From positions 1 through 10,956 of the forward strand of contig CAINWC010000440.1 of assembly GCA_903854305.1 (NCBI GenBank): a stretch of DNA of 10,956 nucleotides, in the 5' to 3' direction. Below, one piece after another: positions 218 through 10,956 of the stretch. The notes below the pieces were generated by a model. That model saw only the letters and a list, made by a program, of their open reading frames with translations. It was not told the origin of the DNA and made no database searches. The position numbers were made by a program, and so were the translations under genes. Source of the DNA: an uncultured Pseudomonadota bacterium (lineage in GTDB: Bacteria > Pseudomonadota > Gammaproteobacteria > Burkholderiales > Methylophilaceae). Within the stretch, counting starts at the first letter, position 1. Each line of letters starts with the position of its first letter.

Positions 218-1129
218 TTATATTTTATTATTCAATGAAGCTTTAACCTCTTGAATTAAGACTGATGCACCTTTATTCATTTGCTCTTCATGGCCATCTC
301 GGAACATCCAAAATATATTGTCGAAGATAGGTGGATTCCTTTTTCGACCATCATAAATTTCATCCTGAAGCAGTCTGGAATTGACTTTAATTTCATCAAT
401 GCCTGCTCCATTGACAGCACTGCTCCATAGCTTTTCCGCATGATCTCTAAGCTTATCTAATCTGTCAGCTGCATCACGATGCTCAATAAATTGACTCACA
501 CCTAACTTGTAAAGAGCAGACATCGGAATAACTATCTTCATCACGAAATCAGTCATGGTCAGATCTTGAATAAAACCAAACCAAACCAAAGAAATTGCCA
601 AGAGAATCAGAATAGTAAATATCGTATTCGCATACCTTCGCCGAAGCGTGGAGTCCCACCAAATGTTGGCACGCTGACAAACTATGCATCCCCATTGAGT
701 AGGTAGCTGCTGAACTTCAATTGGATACCAGTTCCTAAGCTTTTCTAGCTTCGCAGCATTTTTTCCTAACTTTTTGGCATGCTCATGTATCAGTTCTGGC
801 TCAGGTCTTTTTCCAACCTTGATTTCATTCCACTTAATAGACAAGACCTTTGTGTCAAAGGCTTCTTGAACCAATGCTCCCTGACTCCTCAATTTCTTCT
901 GAAGTGGATTCAAAAACACCAAATCAACTAGTAATATCGTTACACCCAGTAGTGCTGCATAGTTTTTTAGCTCTGGATGAATGATGCCTAACAGGGTCGC
1001 AGTCATTGCAATTGGCCCTGCAATAATCATTTGTGAACCGATAATTACTTTAGCCGATGAATAAAGTTGGCGCTGAGCAGCCAACATCTCAATTTGAGTG
1101 GGTGCGTTTTGTTTTTGATTTATATTCAT
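218..1129 (-). CDS. S-4TM family CBASS membrane effector
   Basis: This 303-residue protein is the likely effector of the adjacent CD-NTase. Effectors of this class are thought to bind the cyclic oligonucleotide made on infection and to disrupt the inner membrane, killing the cell. Four hydrophobic segments are visible at about residues 29-50, 56-73, 167-187 and 192-211, with a long charged cytoplasmic loop between pairs two and three. The loop carries the family-typical WYP (about 134-136) and CQRANIWWD (about 151-159) motifs, followed by an arginine-rich patch. I start it at the ATG at 1129, two bases after the nucleotidyltransferase stop. A TTG at 1135 would overlap that stop in a TTGA, but it is a rarer start and no better placed. 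No strong ribosome binding site is seen, so translation probably depends on re-initiation from the upstream gene. The family assignment (SMODS-associated 4TM) is by motif recognition; the ligand is unknown. Confidence 0.85.
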   Translation of the reverse strand: MNINQKQNAPTQIEMLAAQRQLYSSAKVIIGSQMIIAGPIAMTATLLGIIHPELKNYAALLGVTILLVDLVFLNPLQKKLRSQGALVQEAFDTKVLSIKWNEIKVGKRPEPELIHEHAKKLGKNAAKLEKLRNWYPIEVQQLPTQWGCIVCQRANIWWDSTLRRRYANTIFTILILLAISLVWFGFIQDLTMTDFVMKIVIPMSALYKLGVSQFIEHRDAADRLDKLRDHAEKLWSSAVNGAGIDEIKVNSRLLQDEIYDGRKRNPPIFDNIFWMFRDGHEEQMNKGASVLIQEVKASLNNKI

Positions 1130-1131
1130 AG

Positions 1132-2004
1132 TCAAAGGTAATAGCTTGGAAACTTGTCGTTGTAAAGCTTACCCCACCATTCAAAAGCTTCTTTAATATT
1201 GTCATTGATTGTGGCATCTCTTGCCTTCTGAGCGCGGGTTGAAGCTGTGGCGAGTTTGGACAAAGCATCAACTTTAAAGGCTTCTGTTTTACAGGGATAG
1301 ATGTAACCAGATACACCCATCGGGTCTTGCATCATTGCCAATTCACTATCCCTAAGCTGCCGCAAGATTGTATTTATATCAATGTCATAGGCAATGCTTT
1401 TTTCATCAGCCGCAAACTTTGCAACTCGCATCTCAAGGTAGAAAGAAGAAATCTTTGCTCCCTGATAAAACTTCCATGCTTTAATAAAACGTATCAGCGG
1501 CTTAACTTTTCCTCCGTGTTGCTTATCAATGTAGTCCACGTATGCATTATGAGCATCAGGACTGGCTTCCATCCATCCGTCATTCCCGTCAGCTATTTCA
1601 TAGACCTTGTAGCCATTTGACTCATTGACATAGTCTGCGACCACAATCTCAGTATCTTCAGATTTTTTGTCACCAAAGGGCACCAATACGGCAGGTGAAT
1701 TTACTGCTACACCAGTATCTGGAAATCTCGTAGCAAGTGCATTCTTCACCTTAATCAGTGAAGCAGTAGATGTTTTAGTCAGTTGTGCAGTGGGGATACA
1801 AGCTAAGTAGTCAACATCGCTGTAGCCTGACACATTTGTTCCATTCCCAAATGATCCAATTCTAGTAAACCGATTCAAACCGAAGTTGCTTTTGAGGCAT
1901 GCCTCAATCGAAGCTCGATGACTTTTTGCAAGAGCAGTCTCTGCTTTTGTAGCCTTGATACTAGTTAGAAAGTCATCAAAGCCCTGTGCAATTGTTCTAG
2001 GCAT
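1132..2004 (-). CDS. CD-NTase (SMODS cyclic oligonucleotide synthase) of a CBASS system
   Basis: This 290-residue nucleotidyltransferase probably makes a cyclic di- or trinucleotide alarm signal in response to phage. The polymerase-beta-like core shows the GS motif at G50-S51, followed by the metal-binding D63-x-D65 in YSDVDYL. The third acidic position falls in the strand TEIVVAD (E119, or alternatively D124). The helical half contains a VKPLIRFIKAWK segment (about 167-178), typical of SMODS enzymes, and the length is normal. I choose the ATG at 2004 because GGGAG sits 5 bases upstream; the in-frame GTG at 2010 would leave no spacing. The stop lies two bases before the effector ATG, so the two genes are one operon. 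No Cap2/Cap3 or HORMA/TRIP13 accessory genes are visible, which fits a minimal type I CBASS. The product nucleotide cannot be told from sequence alone. Confidence 0.9.
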   Translation of the reverse strand: MPRTIAQGFDDFLTSIKATKAETALAKSHRASIEACLKSNFGLNRFTRIGSFGNGTNVSGYSDVDYLACIPTAQLTKTSTASLIKVKNALATRFPDTGVAVNSPAVLVPFGDKKSEDTEIVVADYVNESNGYKVYEIADGNDGWMEASPDAHNAYVDYIDKQHGGKVKPLIRFIKAWKFYQGAKISSFYLEMRVAKFAADEKSIAYDIDINTILRQLRDSELAMMQDPMGVSGYIYPCKTEAFKVDALSKLATASTRAQKARDATINDNIKEAFEWWGKLYNDKFPSYYL

Positions 2005-2041
2005 GTACACTCCCTTTATTATTAATTGCCTTTAATGTAAA

Positions 2042-2073: not shown

Positions 2074-3398
2074 TCCACATAGAACTAATCCAATCCCCCA
2101 GCCTCAGCAATCTCAATCAAGGTCGGAATGTGCGGCCCATATTCAACTGTTTCATTGATGCCTTTAGCTGAGGTAGTTGGTGGAATTGCTAGTCTCACAC
2201 CACTGCCTACCTTACGGGCATGTTTGGCATAAAGCGTCTTGGCACGTATGATTTCATAGCTGTAGCCACGACCAATTCTATTGGCAATTTTTATCAGTCC
2301 ATTTAGACACTCAGTGTAGGCATTGGTAATCTGGCTAGGTGAATCCCAATATGCAAAGATGTCTTCATAGTGATTGTGTACAGTCTTGGCAAGACTGTGG
2401 AATCGATCTAGTTCTTTTTCAGGCAAGGTGTTTTCCCATGCTTCAAAAGCCCGCATTGCAGAAACTTTGTCTGGGTCGTCGTAAATCCTGAAGAAAGCCT
2501 CTTTAAAATCGTAAGCCTGTGCCAATGATGGGATGGTCTCGCGTACCACTTCCAACGCATTGCGCTCTGCCTGGCTTAATGATGATGGTCTTTTTAACGT
2601 TAGCCAGCGGATGGATTTTTTTACCTGCACACGCTCATTTTTAGTTAGCGTTGATTGATACTTTTTCCGCTCTTCATCCAAGGCCTCGGAAGCCATTTTC
2701 AGCACATGAAATTTATCAATCACTAACCGTGCATTTGGCAGATATTCGCTGAATGAGCGTTTAAATGGTCTCCACATATCAGTGCAGACCCATTCAACTT
2801 TTTCTCGATCTGGCATATTTTTGAAGTATGGCTTCAGGTGGTCTTGAGTTCGGAATTCCAGCATATCAAAGACATTATTCGTGGCCAGATTGGTAATGAC
2901 ACAACGATAAGCGCCAGCTAAATTAACTTCATCGATCCCCATAATGACTGGAGTCTCATAACGGACAGTTTCTTCCATCTCTTCAATCAAATCATGAGCA
3001 ATGTTCTTGATCGTATTTACAGCCAAGCCAGTCTGCTCTGCTAAGCTGTGAAATGTCATGCCAAGACAACGCTGTCGGATGGCATCCACAAGTCTCTTTG
3101 TTGCGCGGCGACGCTCATCCAGAAACGTGAGCTCCGGGGTGGATGTCTTGCCGCAAGCATCGCATCGATAGCGCGGTCGTGAGATTTCAAGCCGGACTGG
3201 TTGCATCTGCATAGGCGTATCTGCAAAAATATTTGTTCGTCTCCCGTGTCGATATAAAAGACGGGCACAATCAGGGCAGTGAGGCAGCTCGCCTTCCACT
3301 ACTTCAGCAATAATGGTGATTGCACGGCTACTTGAATGCAAGTCAACCGGCTTTACGCCTGGCAGATTGAGAAGATCAAGCACCTATGTCATCCACAT
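2074..3398 (-). mobile_element. candidate minimal ISL3 insertion bounded by a 7-bp direct repeat
   Basis: On the minus strand ATGTGGA occurs at 3398-3392, inside the last codons of hsdR, and again at 2080-2074, just past the transposase stop. The 1311 bases between the copies are almost exactly the transposase gene, with 8 bases before its start and 4 after its stop. ISL3 elements normally make 8-bp target duplications and have inverted repeats of 15 or more bases. Here the duplication would be 7 bp, or 8 bp with one mismatch, and no good inverted repeat is found. The boundaries are therefore a proposal. Confidence 0.45.
2085..3383 (-). CDS. ISL3-family transposase, intact
   Basis: This 432-residue protein has the full ISL3 layout. 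An N-terminal zinc finger has C36-x2-C39 and C74-x2-C77, a helix-turn-helix lies at about 95-130, and a DDE catalytic domain has D151 (in GIDEVN), D202 (in CTDMW) and E358 (in NAYTECLNG). Length is normal for the family and there is no frameshift, so it may be active. The start is GTG at 3383: an in-frame TAG lies immediately upstream and the next methionine is at residue 58, so no longer form is possible. The start codon overlaps the hsdR end by 8 bases, so it probably relies on coupled translation. No clear Shine-Dalgarno sequence is seen; GTGGA 8 bases upstream is the nearest. Convincing terminal inverted repeats are absent. A 7-bp direct repeat flanks the gene (see the separate entry). Confidence 0.92.
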   Translation of the reverse strand: MLDLLNLPGVKPVDLHSSSRAITIIAEVVEGELPHCPDCARLLYRHGRRTNIFADTPMQMQPVRLEISRPRYRCDACGKTSTPELTFLDERRRATKRLVDAIRQRCLGMTFHSLAEQTGLAVNTIKNIAHDLIEEMEETVRYETPVIMGIDEVNLAGAYRCVITNLATNNVFDMLEFRTQDHLKPYFKNMPDREKVEWVCTDMWRPFKRSFSEYLPNARLVIDKFHVLKMASEALDEERKKYQSTLTKNERVQVKKSIRWLTLKRPSSLSQAERNALEVVRETIPSLAQAYDFKEAFFRIYDDPDKVSAMRAFEAWENTLPEKELDRFHSLAKTVHNHYEDIFAYWDSPSQITNAYTECLNGLIKIANRIGRGYSYEIIRAKTLYAKHARKVGSGVRLAIPPTTSAKGINETVEYGPHIPTLIEIAEAGGLD

Positions 3399-6300
3399 CA
3401 ATATTGCGTTGATCTCGGATCAGCTCATAAATAACGTCCGTAAGTGCGGACATTGCCTGTCTATCTGATTTTAATACCAAGGTGGCCAACTGCTGATGTG
3501 AGGTTAAGGCTCTCACAACACCTTGCTGAACAGCACCAGGCAAATTACCCTTTAACGCTTGGTCTCGTGTGTTGTTCTCGACCTGCGCCATGACAACATC
3601 ATTTTCTCGTGCAATTGAAACAATATGATTCACAAAGGTTGCTTGATCACGTAGCGGCGTGGCATCACCAAACAAGTGATTCAGTTTCTCGATTATCTCT
3701 ACAAGAAAATGTGGGTTATCTCCTTTTGAACCGCCGCCTCCTGGCCCAACTGGTTGTAATGACGGAACCTCTTCGTCTTCTGAAGGTACATCCTGCTTGC
3801 TCTTAATGTCAAAGCCGGTGAGTACCAGACCTTTCAAATCAACATTTTCAGGAGTCTCACCGCTGAGTCTCTTCATGAGTAACTTAGTAAAGGCCGCAAA
3901 GTTTTCTAATTCAGGATCGCCAAAATCGATCAACTGCGCCACATAAGCGTAAGTTCGGCAGAATCGACCCAATCCTGATTTGAAAGCCATAAGTGTTTTA
4001 ATTTGATCAGCATGCTCTTGCCGATGATGATCCGCTGATTTTGCTCCAGCTTCATCACCTTGACTATGCGCCTTATCGAAAGCAGCTTCCCACGTCACAA
4101 TCGCTTCACGTAACATTTTTAGGCGCTGATTAAATAAGCGGGTTGGCCGCTCGGTAGCCGCGTACAGTGCTTTGTGCTGCGGTTCTTGAGCATGCGTGAT
4201 GTCGCGAATCGTCTTGAAGCGGGCTTCTTTGAAGCTATCTAAATCTTCCGTCTCATACAGGCCTTGGGCATCTAGCTGCTCTTTAATCTCATAAACAACA
4301 TTCACATCCTGTATATCGTCAATTTGAGCACCTTCATCATAGATGGCAAAAGCACGACGAACATTGGCAGGATCATTTACAAAATCAATAATAAATATCT
4401 CATCTTTGCCTGGTGCCATTCGGTTGAGCCGTGAGAAGGTTTGCACAATCTCTACGTCATTGGCGATTTTCTTATCCACGTACATCGCCACTAATTTAGG
4501 TTGATCAAACCCCGTCTGAAATTTGTCAGCAACCAACATCACGCGATATTCAGGCCGTTCGAAGGCAATACGTAAATCCTGACCAGCAACATCAGGGTTC
4601 ATGTTTTCCTCAGAGAATTCGTCATTCTCATCAATCAGAAACGCATCTTCGGTAAACTCTGCATCGAAATCGTGCATCACTTGTTTACCGGTCATTTTCC
4701 CGGAAAATGCAATCAGCGAGTAAATGCCTGCATATTCGGAGTGCTTAGCAATGTAGGCATCAAAACTCTTTTTATAGCGAATGGCCGCTGCGCGGGAGCT
4801 GGTGACTACCATAGCCTTGGCTTTGCCATCTAAGCGATGCGCTACGTTCTTGCCGAAATGCTCAATGATAAATTGCACTTTCTGCGTTACGTTGGACGGA
4901 TGTAATGCCATCCACTGCGCTAAAGCCCGCTTTGCGGCTTTGCCGCTGACGCGCTTAGTATCTTCAATCTGTTTGGCAAGGTTAAATGCTGTTTTATAGG
5001 GCACATAACCAAGCAGCACATCTAGAATGAATCCTTCTTCAATGGCCTGGCGCATAGAGTAGCGATGGAATGCGCGTGGCAGATTGTCTTTAGAGGCTGG
5101 CTGTGTAGGGTCTTGAGGGCGACCGAACAACATGAAGGTTGAATGCTTAGGCGTGCCGGTAAATGCAAAATAGCTGATATTTTCAGGGCGCGCACGCGAC
5201 TTTTGAAGCTGCTCTAGCAGCTCCTCTACAGTCAATGATGCCATTTTACCGTTGCCACTCATGGCAAGCGCGGTCTGGAGTTTCGCTGCTGTTGAACCAG
5301 TTTGCGAAGCATGGGCCTCATCAATGATCACAGCAAAGTTTTTACCCTTTAATGCCTTGTCGGTCACAATAGCTTCCATGGCATAAGGGAATGTCTGGAT
5401 GGTCACCACAATAATGGGCGTGCCAGCCAATAGCGCATCAGCCAATTGCTGACTTTTGGATTTAGAAGACTTTTGGCGATCTATGGCGGCAATCACACCA
5501 AATTGATGGTCAATCTGTTTTACCGCGTCTTGTAGTTGACCATCTAGCACGGTGCGATCTGTCACAATAATCACGCTGCTGAAGATAGCCTCGCCATTAT
5601 CTTTGCGACACTTCACTAAATCATGCGCTGTCCATGAAATCGTGCTGGTTTTACCTGAACCTGCACTATGGTCAGCAAGGTAAGACATGCCAGGACCGTT
5701 TTTCTTGGCATCTTCAATCATGGCATTCACAGCCGACCATTGGTGGTAGCGCGGAAAAATTAGCGTTTCTTTCTTAGACCAGTTTCCTTTGAGGTCAACG
5801 ACATCTTTTTTCTCGACATAAACAAAGCCGTGGAAAATACGCAACCAGGCATCGCGTTGGCAAACCTGCTCCCAAAAGTAGGCTACAGGATATTCACCAT
5901 CCTTGCGCTCAGGGTTTCCTGCATGTCCTGCATTGCCTTGGTTGAATGGCAGAAAAAAGGTGTTTTCGCCATCCAGTTTGGTTGCCATCTGAATATCAGA
6001 ATCAGACATCGCAAAATGCACAACAGCACCACGCTTAAACGTCAGTAGCGGTTCACGGCGTTTGGTTTTGGGGTCATAGGGAAGTCTGTCTGTGCGGTAC
6101 TGATCCATAGCAGCGTCGGCTGACTGCGTAAAGTCTGTTTTCAGCTCAACTGTGGCAACAGGAATGCCATTAATAAACAACACCAGATCAATCGCCAGCT
6201 TACGGGATGGGTGATATTGCAATTGTGGTACCACTCGCAGAATATTGGCTGCATAGCGCTTCAATACATCGGTATTACGCTTATCCTCTGGAGCCGCTTC

Positions 6301-6606
6301 CGAAAGATCAAGATGCCCACAACCAGCGATAGAGAAGCCATTGCGTAAAATATTCGTGGTGCCGTGGTCTGTAAGCGCTTTGGCTAAACGATCCATGAGC
6401 ACCTCACGAGTACGCTCGCCGTTATCCTTCTGGAGCTTAGTCCACTTCTCAAGTTGCGTAGCTTCCAGCCATGCAATCAAGTCCTCCGCATAGAGGGCTC
6501 GCTCGGTATCATAGTGCAGCGTATCGCCAATTTTCCAGCCCTGTGTCTCCAGTTTGGAAACAACATAGGCTTCAAAATGTTTTTCTTGGTGTGCTGTATC
6601 GCTCAT
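3376..6606 (-). CDS. hsdR: type I restriction enzyme R subunit (HsdR)
   Basis: HsdR is the motor and nuclease subunit of a type I restriction complex; it translocates DNA by ATP hydrolysis and cuts at a distance from unmodified sites. The 1076 residues show an N-terminal PD-(D/E)xK nuclease (D140, then E154-x-K156 in VELK, with QY in MDQYRTDR at 169-170). The superfamily 2 helicase motor follows, with Walker A GSGKT at 316-320, DEAH at 429-432, FTGTP at 482-486 and a QTFSRLNR motif VI at 722-729. A long alpha-helical C-terminal region completes it. All key residues are present, so it should be functional. AGGGGG lies 8 bases before the ATG, and the start is 21 bases after the stop of the HEPN gene. 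The final residues (DDIGA) may have been supplied by the transposase insertion; joining across the flanking repeat would end the protein IDVEFGL instead. Confidence 0.96.
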   Translation of the reverse strand: MSDTAHQEKHFEAYVVSKLETQGWKIGDTLHYDTERALYAEDLIAWLEATQLEKWTKLQKDNGERTREVLMDRLAKALTDHGTTNILRNGFSIAGCGHLDLSEAAPEDKRNTDVLKRYAANILRVVPQLQYHPSRKLAIDLVLFINGIPVATVELKTDFTQSADAAMDQYRTDRLPYDPKTKRREPLLTFKRGAVVHFAMSDSDIQMATKLDGENTFFLPFNQGNAGHAGNPERKDGEYPVAYFWEQVCQRDAWLRIFHGFVYVEKKDVVDLKGNWSKKETLIFPRYHQWSAVNAMIEDAKKNGPGMSYLADHSAGSGKTSTISWTAHDLVKCRKDNGEAIFSSVIIVTDRTVLDGQLQDAVKQIDHQFGVIAAIDRQKSSKSKSQQLADALLAGTPIIVVTIQTFPYAMEAIVTDKALKGKNFAVIIDEAHASQTGSTAAKLQTALAMSGNGKMASLTVEELLEQLQKSRARPENISYFAFTGTPKHSTFMLFGRPQDPTQPASKDNLPRAFHRYSMRQAIEEGFILDVLLGYVPYKTAFNLAKQIEDTKRVSGKAAKRALAQWMALHPSNVTQKVQFIIEHFGKNVAHRLDGKAKAMVVTSSRAAAIRYKKSFDAYIAKHSEYAGIYSLIAFSGKMTGKQVMHDFDAEFTEDAFLIDENDEFSEENMNPDVAGQDLRIAFERPEYRVMLVADKFQTGFDQPKLVAMYVDKKIANDVEIVQTFSRLNRMAPGKDEIFIIDFVNDPANVRRAFAIYDEGAQIDDIQDVNVVYEIKEQLDAQGLYETEDLDSFKEARFKTIRDITHAQEPQHKALYAATERPTRLFNQRLKMLREAIVTWEAAFDKAHSQGDEAGAKSADHHRQEHADQIKTLMAFKSGLGRFCRTYAYVAQLIDFGDPELENFAAFTKLLMKRLSGETPENVDLKGLVLTGFDIKSKQDVPSEDEEVPSLQPVGPGGGGSKGDNPHFLVEIIEKLNHLFGDATPLRDQATFVNHIVSIARENDVVMAQVENNTRDQALKGNLPGAVQQGVVRALTSHQQLATLVLKSDRQAMSALTDVIYELIRDQRNIDVDDIGA

Positions 6607-6627
6607 ACTATTTCCCCCTGGTTAACA

Positions 6628-7347
6628 TCAATTCGCGATGAACCCGCGAACTCCAACAATCATCTCCTGAACGGCCACATCTGAGACAAACTCCCAATTA
6701 CCATGTGCGGACTGGTTGCGAAGTTCAAGATAGGTATGAAGTCGCTTAGCCGTATTAACATCGACACCACCAACATTTTTCAGGGTTTCTAGTAGTTCAG
6801 CAGTCTTCTTCCTCTGACCGTCCTTCTTGGTTATATCGAGGCCTCTAGTTGTGCAGAGGCTGACCAATTTGGATTCAAGCGCAATTCCAGCATACAGGCA
6901 GGCAGTATTTGCTTCTTTCAATCCTGATTTCTCTACTGACGAAAGTAGTTCCTCGGCTTCACTCAAGTATGAAATACCTACTTCATCATAGATGCGTTGC
7001 TGAAGTGGTCGGTAATATCCCCTAGCAAATGCCTCGCGAAGCCCCTTCAATTGGCCAATCGTGGACGGGAATCCTTTCGGGCGAAGAGAACGGCAGCTAA
7101 CGACAAATTGAATTTTTGTAGAGTCTAAGTTTGGAAGCGCATGATCAACCAAAGTGGCGACTTGATACTTCCATTGCTCAAATGCTTGCACATCTCTAAC
7201 TATAGGCTCAATGATTTTCTGATGCCGAACACGGTCTTGAACCCAGCTATATGAACTGGTGATTTGCGGATTAAGCTCAACTTCAAACGTTTCGGCTTGA
7301 GCGATTAGCGAATCAAATTCTTGCAGTACTGAGTTTCGACTATTCAC
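6628..7347 (-). CDS. HEPN-like protein embedded in the hsd operon
   Basis: I do not recognise a named family for this 239-residue protein. The C-terminal half (about 143-239) looks like a compact helical HEPN domain. It begins with a helix around LYAGIALESKL and carries R210-N-Q-S-A-H215, the RNxxxH signature that forms the RNase site in active HEPN proteins. The N-terminal 140 residues are helical and unassigned, with a W/Y-rich stretch at 30-65. The start is GTG at 7347, overlapping the hsdS stop in a GTGA, so translation is coupled. It sits between hsdS and hsdR, which normally adjoin. Possible roles are an RNase toxin triggered when restriction fails, a partner of AbiF, or a non-catalytic structural HEPN protein resembling the DUF4145 type. 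The motif is seen; the activity is inferred. Confidence 0.7.
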   Translation of the reverse strand: MNSRNSVLQEFDSLIAQAETFEVELNPQITSSYSWVQDRVRHQKIIEPIVRDVQAFEQWKYQVATLVDHALPNLDSTKIQFVVSCRSLRPKGFPSTIGQLKGLREAFARGYYRPLQQRIYDEVGISYLSEAEELLSSVEKSGLKEANTACLYAGIALESKLVSLCTTRGLDITKKDGQRKKTAELLETLKNVGGVDVNTAKRLHTYLELRNQSAHGNWEFVSDVAVQEMIVGVRGFIAN

Positions 7348-8657
7348 GCTGTCTCCCGAAGGTCAATTTGGCCGGTGACGGCAGCAGTAATCATGGCAGA
7401 ACGACGCTCTTTGAGGAGGTCGATGCTTAGTTTGGTTTTCAGCGCAAGAAGATCAAGGCGAGCGGTTTCGTGGTCAATCCAGTCAGCAATAGAGCCTCGA
7501 TGGTTGAGTGGTGGAAGACAGATAGTAACGCTCCCAATGGTATCTTGCCCAAGGCCGTATCGAGTGATTCCAGGCGCTTCTACGAAGAAGTAAGCTAGTG
7601 TTACATGTGATTGCATTGTTCGATGAATCAAGCGGGCGGTGTTGAGGTCGCCAGTCCGAATCTGTGTAAGGTGGTATCCGCAAACGACGCCTGGTACATC
7701 ATCTGCAACAAGAGCGGGAATGCCAATATCGGAAGGGTCTTCCGAGTCTTTAGTGATGATTACATCGCCCTTTTGTAGAGAGAATTGCTCTATTTCAGCA
7801 GGACTGGCCGTTGCCTGCATAAATGACAAGTCTTTAGTGATGAATTCGTTGTAATACACATCGGTGTAGTTGCATAGACCTACAGCCGCCTGACCTTCGT
7901 AAGTTTTTTTATCGACGCTGCTGTTCTTAAATTCCGAGATATGGCGTAGGCGTTTCACTTCCCACCCCTCAGGCACTTCATCAATCCACTCCACCCCTGA
8001 ATCTTTCATCTTGACGTTAAGGTTAATGCCTTTGGTGACAGCATGCGTAATGAGAGCCGAACGCTTTTCTTTTAGCAATTCAATGAAGCGGGTTTTCTTG
8101 GCGATGATGGCATCAATACGTGCGTTTTCGCGGTCGAGTGCTGCAATGATTTTAGCCTGTTCAGATTGGCTCGGTGATGGTACATAGATTGAGCCGACAT
8201 GCTCCCAATCTGCTCTTGGCATTTTTGTACCTTCGCAGCCAGCTTCAATTTGTTGTGTGACTTCAGTGGTCAATAACCATTGTTGGAGCCATGGAGCCAT
8301 GATTAATGTTGGCTGCATGACAAGGAATTCGGTTGAACAAACTCCATTTGAATCGCTAACGATGGCTTTCTTTAAGTATGGGCGAAGCTTTCCATACAAG
8401 ACATCGCCTGATTTAAATACTCCCACTGTCGAATCTTCATTTTGACGTGAGTTTCCCTCAGTTGGACGATATTTTCCTGAGCCTGACTCAACATCTTCCA
8501 AACCTATGTATCGCCATCCTTCAGGAGCGTCGGTACATCTTTCATTTCGCAATGATGTAAAACGCTTTATTCTGGCAACATCCCATCCATCAGGCACATC
8601 ACCAATCCACTCTACGCCTGAATTTTTGTATTTAGGGTAAGCTTTGTAATGACTCAT
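7344..8657 (-). CDS. hsdS: type I restriction specificity subunit (HsdS)
   Basis: HsdS reads the bipartite DNA target and assembles with two HsdM and two HsdR subunits. The 437-residue protein has two half-repeats. Each begins with a SGVEWI..VP.GW..(K/R) element (13-25 and 220-232), runs through a variable target-recognition domain (about 30-150 and 240-375) and ends in a conserved coiled-coil spacer (about 165-210 and 388-430, containing LLKE(K/R)RSA.IT.AVT). The half-repeats are also visible as DNA repeats. The start is ATG at 8657, overlapping the abiF stop in ATGA, with a strong AGGAGGTG inside the abiF tail. Its stop overlaps the start of the HEPN gene. Both TRDs are complete, so it should specify a two-part site; the sequence recognised cannot be predicted here. 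Confidence 0.95.
7961..8627. repeat. pair of 46-bp direct repeats within hsdS
   Basis: The segments at 7961-8006 and 8582-8627 match at 39 of 46 positions in the same orientation. They encode the two SGVEWI..VP.GW elements that precede each target-recognition domain. Such repeats are expected from the duplicated architecture of HsdS and can serve as sites for domain exchange by recombination. Confidence 0.8.
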
Positions 8658-9556
8658 GGATTCACCTCCTGCCAGATCGGTAGCGTCTGCCAGTTTGCGG
8701 GAAAGTCCATTGCAGAGGTATTAATGGCGTGCTGTTGAATCAGTTTTTTAAGACCAGTTCGCCAATGGTGGTGTGGCGCAACAATGTTCATGCAATGCAA
8801 CAGAATTACCAAGCTGTTGTATAGTTTTCTGGAGCCATGCGCCCACTGCGCTGTTAACCCCGCTGGTTTCCTGCCAGGTGCTTTTGGCGTAATAGTGAAT
8901 TCACGATTCCATAGCCTGCTGTGGTGTGCGCAGGTATTTCTAACCAATGAAAGATGACGTAGCCACGATGCCAATACAGATTCATCAACACCGTAAGTCT
9001 TGGCAATCGCTTGGCGCACCTGCATAGGTTTCAGATTGTCGTACCACCGAGAAAGCAAACCTAATGACATTACTTCACATGATGCCCATATCGGTGGTAA
9101 CGCTTCGCTGTAGTTCTGGCGATAGTGTCCTATAAATGTTTCGTCAGAACGAGAAACTTCATCGGTAAGCTTGGTTAGGTTTTGTTGCCAGCGTGCAGCT
9201 TTGAAAGCAATCGTTGAATCAAGATGTGCATGCGGCCCACAATGATGCGCTAATTGATAAGCCCATGCACTACGGACGGATACTTCTATACGCTCGATAG
9301 CATCCAGCACATGCAGCCGCAACTGGCGATCAAAAATATAGAGATTAAGTACCGCATCAAAGCTGGTTCCGGGATGGAAGCGATGGTTATTGTGATCAGC
9401 CTCAAATGGCAGCCAATAAGCACCCATGCGATAATAATTGATGTGCTGAAGATAGAACTCAGCTTCTTGCGGATTCGCAACAACCATGCCGCGTTGCTGA
9501 AGTAGAGCAACTTGATCAGCCCAAGTGATGGCTGGTTTAGTGAAGGGTCGCGTCAT
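8654..9556 (-). CDS. abiF: Abi_2 (AbiD/AbiF) family HEPN abortive-infection protein
   Basis: This 300-residue protein belongs to the Abi_2 family, whose members stop phage growth and are predicted HEPN RNases. The N-terminus ([19 protein letters not shown], then [14 protein letters not shown] at 39-52) is typical. The core has IERIEVSVR at 87-95, and the C-terminal half carries R206-N-T-C-A-H211-H followed by SRLWN, the HEPN catalytic signature. I start at the ATG at 9556, with AGGG 8 bases upstream; this matches where the family begins. An in-frame GTG at 9601 would add 15 residues encoded inside the leader hairpin and is unlikely. It overlaps hsdS by 4 bases. A 157-base gap with its own promoter separates it from hsdM, which suggests independent expression. 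From memory, AbiF proteins have been described as toxins paired with a structured RNA and related to the ancestry of Cas13; the leader here fits that. Confidence 0.9.
8661..8668 (-). promoter_or_regulatory. strong ribosome binding site for hsdS inside abiF
   Basis: The minus strand reads AGGAGGTGAATCC directly before the ATG of hsdS. AGGAGGTG is a near-perfect anti-16S match, located within the last codons of abiF. It fixes the hsdS start and implies efficient initiation in addition to coupling through the ATGA overlap. Confidence 0.8.
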
Positions 9557-9632
9557 GTTTGCAACCCTAGAAATGAGTAACCCGCCGGTTTGAGGATACA
9601 CTTTCGTGCATAGCCTTGGCGGGTTTTGTTGC
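9557..9632 (-). ncRNA. candidate structured RNA upstream of abiF
   Basis: On the minus strand AACCCGCC (9625-9618) pairs perfectly with GGCGGGTT (9586-9579). Inside this 8-bp stem, AUGCAC and GUGUAU form a further stem (one G-U pair) closed by a GAAA tetraloop, and a GG/CC pair lies between the two stems. The whole gives a long interrupted hairpin. GCAAC at 9632-9628 could also pair with GUUGC at 9565-9561 beside the abiF ribosome binding site. The promoter entry places transcription start near 9631, just before the structure. I recall that a conserved RNA motif is known upstream of abiF genes; whether this one matches that covariance model needs a search. It may be an RNA antitoxin, a cis-acting leader, or both. 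The 3' end is unknown. Confidence 0.6.
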
Positions 9633-9636
9633 TTAA

Positions 9637-9715
9637 CATCATATATTTAGTGCACGCGAAATGCAATACCTTATTTGCCGTTATAACGCCATTTGCCATC
9701 ATATAAGTGCGCACT
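9637..9715. repeat. direct repeats and palindromes in the hsdM-abiF gap
   Basis: The nonamer CATCATATA occurs at 9637-9645 and again at 9697-9705, exactly 60 bases apart. Each copy is followed within a few bases by AGTGC, so on the minus strand both read GCACT..TATATGATG. The 9697 copy abuts a perfect 10-bp palindrome, AGTGCGCACT (9706-9715), overlapping the hsdM stop. A second perfect palindrome, CGTTATAACG (9679-9688), lies between the copies and is flanked by two ATTTGCC words. These look like operator-type elements around the abiF promoter; no regulator can be named. Confidence 0.5.
9638..9666 (-). promoter_or_regulatory. sigma70-like promoter before the abiF leader
   Basis: TTGCAT (minus strand, 9666-9661) and TATGAT (9643-9638) are separated by 17 bases. 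The -10 box matches consensus at 5 of 6 positions and the -35 at 3 of 6. Transcription would begin around 9631, immediately before the hairpin, and would run through abiF, hsdS, the HEPN gene and hsdR. Confidence 0.5.
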
Positions 9716-10956
9716 ATTCAGTTACCTCACCCAATAACGCAGCAATTTCAGCTTCTACCTTTTTTAAATCAGCGTCAATATCAGCGAGTTTGCGTGGCGG
9801 CACATATTTGTAGAAAAAACGGTTAAAGTTGACCTCATAACCAACACGGCCAATGTCATGATCTTTGTCGTCTCGGAAGGATTCGTCAATATAGGCATCC
9901 GGCACATGGGGCAGCACCTCACGCGCAAAAAAGTCTTTAATATCTTCCGCAAGTGGTACGTTCTCATAATCCGTTAAATCAGTATCAGAAAGTGCTTGCC
10001 CATCTGCATCCAAAACCGGTTCACTTTCTGGGTCACGCTGTCCAAAAGCATTCACCAGTGCTTTTATCAGTGGCTTTCCAACCTTACCAATAACAGAAGA
10101 TGTTTGTGCTGCTTCGCTCGCAAATGTTTCTGCCCAGTCAAAAGGTTGTATTGTGCCAAGGTGAATTTCTAGTGCTGCATTCCAAGCCTCTTGTTGCTCA
10201 GCAGATAGCTTTAACCATACTTTATCGTCATGCAGTTTATTCACGTTCTCGCGGTTGATTTGCAGAGACATTCTGAGCGGGCGTAGCACTCTAATGCGGC
10301 GATAACCAAAGGTGTGGTAATCAACCATTTGACTAAGCCCGCTGCTTTCAGCAGAGGCGTAGATGTCAACAATCTGCCGGCGTTGATCATCGCTGATGAT
10401 ACGGCGCTTGTTACCTTCATTCTTGATTGAAGTCCAAAGACTGGAGGCGCTGATAAGTTGCACTTTATTTTGACGCTGTACAGGTTTTTTATTGGACAGA
10501 ATCCACAGGTAGGTAGCGATACCCGTCCTGAAGAAGATTTCTGTTGGAAGCATTACTATGGCTTCAATTAAATCATTTTCCAGCAGCCAGCGACGAATTT
10601 CAGACTCACCAGAACCAGCGCCACCATTGAACAGCGGTGAACCAGATAAAACGATGGCGGCACGACCTCCACCATTCTCAGGTAACTCTAATTTGCTGGC
10701 TAAATGCATCAGAAACAGCATTGATCCATCGTTGATGCGTGGCAAGCCAGGACCAAAGCGACCATCGTATTTCTTTTCTGTGTGTTCTGTATTTACTGCA
10801 TCCTGATCCTTCTCCCATTTTTTACCGAAGGGTGGATTAGATAAGCAATAGTGAAATTTATCATTGGCAAATTGATCGTTAGAAAGTGTGCGGCCAAGTT
10901 TTATGTTTTTAGATAAATCACGACCTGGATCTGATTCTAGTGTACGCAACAACATG
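9714..10956 (-). CDS. hsdM: type I DNA methyltransferase subunit (HsdM), 5' end outside the window
   Basis: HsdM transfers methyl groups from S-adenosylmethionine to adenine N6 in the site chosen by HsdS. About 414 residues of the C-terminal part are present. The catalytic motif IV NPPF is at visible residues 40-43 (in CLSNPPFGKKW), followed by the GSMLFLMHLASKL and AIVLSGSPLFNGG segments and the IVMLPTEIFFRTGIATYLWIL block typical of this family. The AdoMet-binding motif I and the N-terminal helical domain would lie beyond position 10956. The frame is open through the window edge, so the methionine closest to the edge should not be taken as the start. The C-terminus ends in a TAG inside the AGTGCGCACT palindrome. 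Its separation from the rest of the operon by 157 bases suggests that the methyltransferase has separate control. Confidence 0.95.
   Translation of the reverse strand, partial: MLLRTLESDPGRDLSKNIKLGRTLSNDQFANDKFHYCLSNPPFGKKWEKDQDAVNTEHTEKKYDGRFGPGLPRINDGSMLFLMHLASKLELPENGGGRAAIVLSGSPLFNGGAGSGESEIRRWLLENDLIEAIVMLPTEIFFRTGIATYLWILSNKKPVQRQNKVQLISASSLWTSIKNEGNKRRIISDDQRRQIVDIYASAESSGLSQMVDYHTFGYRRIRVLRPLRMSLQINRENVNKLHDDKVWLKLSAEQQEAWNAALEIHLGTIQPFDWAETFASEAAQTSSVIGKVGKPLIKALVNAFGQRDPESEPVLDADGQALSDTDLTDYENVPLAEDIKDFFAREVLPHVPDAYIDESFRDDKDHDIGRVGYEVNFNRFFYKYVPPRKLADIDADLKKVEAEIAALLGEVTE

Follow-up and report, generated by a model that had tools for sequence, protein, structure and literature searches.

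The AbiF system, which is the proposed ancestor of Cas13, combines an Abi_2 family HEPN ribonuclease with a small structured RNA. In C. difficile the RNA RCd22, which comprises two abiF motifs and a separate terminator, lies upstream of the toxin gene in a prophage lysis module and has its own promoter; as reported in PMC12373285, it binds AbiF, neutralises its toxicity both in cis and in trans, and additionally acts in cis through premature termination. For PbAbiF, the source describes one RNA bound per monomer and the inhibition of its RNase by single-stranded bulge bases (PMC12737573). A third point of comparison is PrrC, a HEPN RNase whose gene likewise sits inside a type I restriction operon, EcoprrI hsd; PrrC possesses an ATPase domain and is held by the restriction proteins (PMC3710099), whereas AbiF has an RNA partner instead. 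That Abi2 proteins occur embedded within restriction operons has been on record since 2013 (PMC3710099).

The window (the whole stretch of 10,956 nucleotides of DNA analyzed here) contains a type I restriction-modification operon with the order hsdM, RNA-abiF, hsdS, a gene for a 239-aa protein, and hsdR (Table 1). Like RCd22-AbiFCd, it places an RNA with a predicted promoter of its own, and a putative antitoxin role, upstream of an Abi_2 HEPN toxin gene; it differs in having a single motif and in residing in a restriction operon (PMC12373285). The encoded AbiF matches the Abi_2 profile with 203.5 bits (cut-off 25.6), and its catalytic R-x4-H motif is present, with R206, N207 and H211 invariant across 20 aligned homologues. 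Its AlphaFold2 model superposes on PbAbiF with a TM-score of 0.90, and the two share the HEPN motif and an associated ncRNA; the PbAbiF-AbiFr complex (PDB: 8VZ6) has been solved, whereas the pair in the window is known from sequence and a model (PMC12737573, PMC12373285). The 239-aa protein is a candidate second HEPN/RNase of the operon: its AlphaFold2 model is of middling confidence (pLDDT 80.7, pTM 0.54), the best Foldseek match is the HEPN structure 2hsb (E 0.026), and HEPN proteins are frequent among the top matches. No structure matches it at E<=0.001 in Foldseek, the DUF4145 match (E 0.062) lies under the cut-off, and a search among 5.8 billion proteins yielded 13 of this kind, itself counted. 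Downstream of the restriction operon lies a CBASS-like pair (218-2010, minus strand) consisting of a CD-NTase (SMODS) and an S_4TM effector, and an ISL3 transposase (2085-3383) separates the two.

Table 1. Coordinates of the abiF RNA, its flanking signals and the genes of the restriction operon in the window
Feature	Position	Strand	Evidence or remark
hsdM, cut by the window edge	9714..10955	-	PF02384; PADLOC MTase_I
Weak -35-like TTGCAT	9666-9661	-	spacer 17; under scan threshold
-10-like TATGAT	9643-9638	-	commonest offset among homologous loci
abiF RNA (putative AbiF antitoxin RNA), full model match	9570..9634	-	R2 70.9 bits, E 1.5e-16
Outer 8-bp stem, second and third stems, GAAA loop	9579..9625	-	sequence, fold, homologue covariation (outer and second stem)
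Rfam core of abiF RNA	9580-9623	-	RF03085 29.5 bits
Unpaired CAAACC, conserved single-stranded part	9587..9592	-	alignments of homologues
abiF, 300 aa, Abi_2 / HEPN RNase, motif RNTCAH	8654..9556	-	PF07751 E 4.6e-60; 8vz6 E 1.5e-60
hsdS, 4-nt overlap with abiF stop	7344..8657	-	PF01420; PADLOC Specificity_I
239-aa protein, predicted HEPN-like fold, motif RNQSAH	6628..7347	-	AlphaFold2, Foldseek
hsdR	3376..6606	-	PF18766, PF22679, PF04313

On the minus strand between hsdM and abiF, a perfect 8-bp outer stem is formed by AACCCGCC (9625-9618) and GGCGGGTT (9586-9579), the letters of which were re-read. It encloses a second stem of 3 bp (AGG 9616-9614 with CCT 9595-9593), a CT (CU) bulge (9613-9612), a third stem of 6 bp with one G-U pair (ATGCAC 9611-9606 with GTGTAT 9601-9596) capped by a GAAA loop (9605-9602), and, 3' of the second stem, an unpaired CAAACC. 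This unpaired stretch may, by analogy, be equivalent to the inhibitory bulge described for PbAbiFr in PMC12737573. The hairpin lies 88 nt past the stop codon of hsdM (9714), and 22 nt separate the stem from the ATG of abiF (9556-9554). The interrupted hairpin with a perfect outer stem and a GAAA-capped inner stem, which the initial annotation had placed before abiF, is confirmed by re-reading of the sequence, by the fold and by covariation. For the segment 9557-9643 of the minus strand, the predicted fold is this structure, with a free energy of -25.0 kcal/mol and a z score of -2.72; among 200 shuffled sequences, 4 were equally stable. An additional pairing seen in the fold, between GCAAC before the stem and GTTGC before the ATG, was dropped, being invisible by eye in the close relatives inspected.

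As evidence against chance, covariation outweighs the folding energy. In our alignment A2 of homologous leaders, 98.5% of the combinations at 10 paired positions are standard and 8 of the 10 pairs show two-sided changes; the covariation score of 0.403 compares with a shuffle mean of 0.124 (none of 500 as high) and with slid controls of at most 0.087. The covariance in homologous leaders on which the initial annotation had let its reading hang is therefore strong. Moreover, distances between the RNAs track those between the AbiF proteins (Mantel r 0.589 for n=79, with none of 2000 permutations exceeding 0.141), and hence the RNA and the protein are inherited together.

Among Rfam families searched at a relaxed threshold, the best match to the window is RF03085, the abiF RNA (E 0.0018, or 0.003 when the whole genome is searched; model positions 1-37). 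At the gathering score no Rfam family matches anywhere in the window, and as the RF03085 match lies below the cut-off of 37 bits, formal membership is not claimed. The alignment nonetheless contains the consensus stems and the unpaired conserved bases, with no non-standard pairs marked in the part shown. The window RNA shares with RF03085 the outer stem, the second stem, the unpaired CUCAAAnCGG and the site before an Abi_2 gene, and its covarying stems are common to homologous leaders; its apical part measures 20 nt against 13 in the model, that is, 7 longer.

A set of 80 loci was collected by scanning genome contigs with an AbiF alignment, the loci thus being picked by protein and not by RNA. 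A covariance model, R2, was built from the RNAs of 47 loci whose AbiF is less than 60% identical to that of the window, with the window and the nearer loci (L006-L022) held out. Its score for the window RNA (Table 1) stands against a runner-up of only 11.4 bits within the window. At E<=1 a match precedes abiF in 78 of the 80 loci, and at the stricter E<=1e-6 it does so in 76, 47 of these RNAs being the training set. Over the 82 sources (1.25 Mb), R2 returns 85 matches at E<=1, including those 78 and the window itself, a weak match in a genome from the window's order (L005), and five others: L037 has two, L025 a tandem copy and L032 an orphan, while the match in L027 adjoins a second Abi_2 gene. 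Two loci, L021 and L022, score weakly (27 bits) and are devoid of the usual unpaired stretch, and another two of the 80, L076 and L085, give no R2 match, though a similar hairpin is visible by eye.

None of seven bacterial loci with a long hairpin (L006, L008, L009, L012, L014, L019 and L023, the last being part of the training set) reaches the RF03085 cut-off, whereas R2 scores them at 68-72 bits; the low Rfam score is therefore a property of the long-hairpin class. Likewise, none of four viral long-hairpin loci reaches that cut-off, their R2 scores being 66.2 (L352), 45.1 (L358), 61.1 (L365) and 34.0 bits (L372). The covariance search that the initial annotation had proposed against the Rfam motif gives RF03085 as the best family, though below the gathering score, and the held-out R2 model scores the RNA strongly. 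By homology, the element of the window is an abiF RNA. The notion that this GC-rich repeat is a mere hsdM terminator or a chance inverted repeat draws on its position shortly past the hsdM stop, and is exceedingly improbable given the family match, the covariation, the conserved unpaired sequence and the presence of the element where hsdM is not found.

We consider it very probable that the hairpin is an abiF RNA with its own promoter, which binds the AbiF HEPN dimer and keeps AbiF inactive, as the antitoxins of type III toxin-antitoxin systems do. A small structured RNA would be transcribed just upstream of abiF and would bind the ribonuclease dimer, rendering it inactive; AbiF could be released by an infection that reduces the amount of the RNA or impairs the restriction enzyme. 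The family identity, the covariation and the activities reported for the relatives RCd22 and PbAbiF (PMC12373285, PMC12737573) support the RNA-antitoxin interpretation of the initial annotation, with binding predicted for the window by kinship. That interpretation was right in kind and is already known, since RCd22 neutralises AbiF and the PbAbiF RNA inhibits the RNase.

The same annotation had also placed a sigma70-like promoter just before the structure. This promoter is weaker than claimed, as a scan of the window for promoters and terminators gave nothing above threshold and no promoter site with 9 of 12 matches. Its position, however, is conserved: a -10-like hexamer occurs at the window's offset in 31 of 75 aligned loci (window included), with 20 for the next offset, and, in a wider zone, in 54 of 75 loci, where 500 shuffles average 16.8 and never exceed 27. 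With TATGAT at the commonest conserved offset, a transcription start near 9631 is plausible.

At the other end, a GC-rich stem followed by a T-rich tail is seen in most homologues. The 12 nt after the stem contain 5 T in the window, the range over 80 hairpins being 4-10 and 6 of the 80 having five or fewer. The stem may thus end most transcripts and leave the RNA in excess of abiF mRNA, though the U tract is poor here. We also considered weaker terminators in restriction-nested loci, which proved unsupported: tails average 7.0 T in 12 inside restriction operons (n=23, L013 included) and 7.2 outside (n=57). These features, together with the proximity of the hairpin to the ATG and the premature termination reported for RCd22 (PMC12373285), could be read as a cis-only leader, that is, an attenuator or translation switch for abiF, hsdS, the HEPN-like gene and hsdR with no antitoxin acting in trans. 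Such a leader is very unlikely, as tails have a similar T content in restriction operons and elsewhere, conservation extends to the unpaired inner bases as well as the covarying stems, RCd22 neutralises in trans (PMC12373285), and solitary copies exist in phages without any abiF. These phage copies, as well as RNAs beside broken abiF genes, are more readily explained by an RNA acting in trans than by a leader confined to cis.

The separation of RNA and toxin can be followed in bacterial genomes. Among 369 genomes of the window's class, R2 marks 43 places at E<=1e-4, of which 27, by hand comparison, directly precede a full-length Abi_2 gene; one is at a contig end (L216), three precede a broken abiF, and 12 have no nearby Abi_2 match. 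These 12 include a tandem pair before a faint abiF trace (E 0.001-0.007) and L209, which appears remnant-like by eye. Among 250 genomes of the order there are 16 places at E<1e-3. Five have an intact abiF and seven no trace of the gene; in the rest, abiF is riddled with stops at one place, reduced to 63 codons at another and, at a tandem pair, to a weak remnant of 26 codons. One of the seven without a trace (L136:6192-6249, minus strand) is an abiF RNA at Rfam level (38.1 bits) standing before a DUF3800 gene (E 7.6e-12) and not abiF. In the orphan of L032 (7385-7441), an intact abiF RNA with a promoter-like sequence lies between hsdM and hsdS without abiF, and the corresponding site in the related operon of L027 is occupied by an RNA and a second Abi_2 gene (6548-7528; Abi_2 confirmed). 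L213 contains two near-identical abiF RNAs 9 kb apart (2218-2284 and 11193-11260) without an Abi_2 match, possibly in a prophage. Conversely, the class sample has 33 full-length Abi_2 genes, seven without an R2 match at E<=1e-4; of these, three carry divergent copies of the RNA scoring 18-25 bits, a fourth shows a hairpin that looks doubtful by eye, and for the other three (L219, L223 and L224) no abiF-like RNA was found in this sample. The Abi_2 family is therefore not always RNA-equipped, and these three possibly represent a clade controlled otherwise.

Using tblastn with the window's own subunits, abiF was found between hsd genes in 21 of the 80 loci, 14 between hsdM and hsdS and seven between hsdS and hsdR, some with a further gene in between. 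The 59 loci not counted as nested comprise 52 without any hsd match in this search and seven with partial or distant matches that were left uncounted (L013, L021, L022, L036, L050, L072 and L074). On the AbiF tree the nesting label requires at least 12 changes, compared with a shuffled mean of 19.6, and four of them are forced by well-supported branches, implying that nesting is both clustered and repeated. In L058, hsdM and hsdR are 73-77% identical to those of the window, while AbiF is 48% identical and the RNA belongs to another class, suggestive of cassette exchange.

This recurrent nesting is what would be expected if HsdM, HsdS and HsdR held AbiF inactive as EcoprrI holds PrrC, with the RNA being secondary. 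HEPN genes in restriction operons are read in this way in PMC3710099, and two of the three RNA-less Abi_2 genes (L219 and L223) appear, on visual inspection, to stand right behind an hsdS end. We regard such guarding by the restriction proteins as unlikely in view of the loci not counted as nested, nearly all of which retain the RNA, and of C. difficile, where the RNA alone suffices (PMC12373285).

Virus sequences provide further solitary copies of the RNA. Exact-pattern scans of IMG/VR with three patterns, a sample that is not random, gave at least 120, 30 and 73 stretches; the reversed first and second patterns, used as controls, gave 46 and 0. The outer stem, which lies mostly outside the pattern, pairs at 6 or more of 7 positions in 177 of the 223 matches listed, a filter that removed the other 46, and fully in 153; of the 46 reversed-pattern matches, three reach 6 of 7 and none pairs fully. 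The conservation of unpaired bases in these copies is due to selection of the matches, since those bases belonged to the search pattern. R2 at E<=0.01 returns 94 matches, located in 89 of 100 cluster representatives scored (of 101, from the matches listed). A -10-like hexamer is modestly enriched before the phage copies (34 of 99 among the matches listed; shuffles mean 18.4, maximum 30). Ten large proteins of such contigs were compared with PHROG families: seven matched, five of them to portal, tail sheath or head closure families and two to families without clear function, and three had no PHROG match. One virus contig carries four abiF RNAs as two close pairs (L364:94-549, minus strand), an arrangement reminiscent of ToxI repeats.

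With 82 AbiF queries, AbiF was found within 600 nt downstream of one of the 177 structured viral matches listed, and Abi_2 was absent from 49 of 50 records searched whole (41 virus contigs, many of them fragments, and nine complete named phages). That phages infecting several host groups have the RNA without the toxin is an argument for its action in trans, presumably by binding to AbiF.

Many of the viral copies lie near tRNA genes. A tRNA gene is found within 600 nt of 39 of the 177 copies listed, compared with a mean of 12.7 and a maximum of 20 for random positions (200 draws), and all 72 tRNAs involved share the strand of the RNA. Counted by cluster from the matches listed, 16 of 101 are near a tRNA against 5.0 at random (none of 1000 as high). 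Among the copies listed, 28, which stem from only six flank clusters, have a tRNA start 13-19 nt past the pattern, so that the RNA abuts the tRNA. None of the 46 reversed-pattern loci has a tRNA gene; this control shows that the contigs, and not the position, differ, making the random-position control the better one.

Nine named phage regions, including mycobacteriophages and cyanophages, were chosen among the matches of the window RNA, which matches Mycobacterium phages weakly (E 0.1), and of two viral queries (22, 1 and 57 records, partly overlapping). The query that gave the 57 records (L408) itself included 12 nt of a tRNA gene, and hence tRNA-flanked matches such as Bromden were favoured and the set is not a neutral sample. 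The RNA reaches the Rfam gathering score in S-CREM1, S-SRM01, S-SZBM1, Baka, LittleE, MrMagoo and Bromden; Faith1 and Bajun show none at that score and were identified via BLAST and R2, which gives 18-45 bits over the nine. A tRNA starts within 10 nt of the RNA in six (S-CREM1, S-SRM01, S-SZBM1, MrMagoo, Bromden and Faith1). In Bajun the RNA lies inside a tRNA array, in LittleE 1.1 kb before a tRNA, and in Baka 270 nt before a tRNA, overlapping a predicted gene. Bromden also contains a weaker copy in front of a different tRNA (R2 20.1 bits).

Solitary phage copies of defence RNAs have precedents in Racr (PMC10651486) and in the pseudo-ToxI of phage PhiTE (PMC3475682), which serve as models for the phage abiF RNAs, while belonging to other toxin and RNA families; the abiF copies, as putative decoys, differ in often adjoining tRNA genes. 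The idea that phages counter tRNA nucleases of the host with tRNAs of their own is discussed in PMC10264068. The S-CREM1 paper lists an abiF sRNA and notes that Rfam contains three phage sequences, with no proposal of AbiF blocking in that context (PMC9964418). A search of published papers, mainly open-access ones, found no proposal that phage abiF RNA blocks AbiF.

Taking these observations together, we lean towards the view that solitary abiF RNAs are widespread in phages as decoys against AbiF and are situated in tRNA arrays, where tRNA processing would free the RNAs beside tRNAs that make good the losses caused by HEPN nucleases of the host. It is conceivable, if rather doubtful, that the phage copies are instead remnants of abiF cassettes, or spacers of tRNA arrays selected for RNA processing. 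Some bacterial RNAs do stand beside decayed abiF, phage copies often abut the 5' end of a tRNA, and the single pseudo-ToxI repeats of PhiTE are reported to be inactive until expanded (PMC3475682). Remnants or spacers are harder to reconcile with the near-absence of AbiF matches after the viral copies listed, with outer stems that vary and yet still pair (in copies selected on their unpaired bases), and with an arrangement common to phages of cyanobacteria, mycobacteria and Brevundimonas.

With the window, the AbiF systems gain a clean member, and the accompanying comparison indicates that the Rfam model misses the long-hairpin class in the loci tested. If the solitary phage RNAs are decoys, they would allow one to test whether AbiF acts against phages and is countered by them through RNA mimicry. 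They would also assign a function to gaps left without annotation in the tRNA arrays of phages, and would make tRNA a candidate target of AbiF. The abiF RNA would then be a general currency of the arms race, and its placement would suggest that AbiF attacks tRNA.
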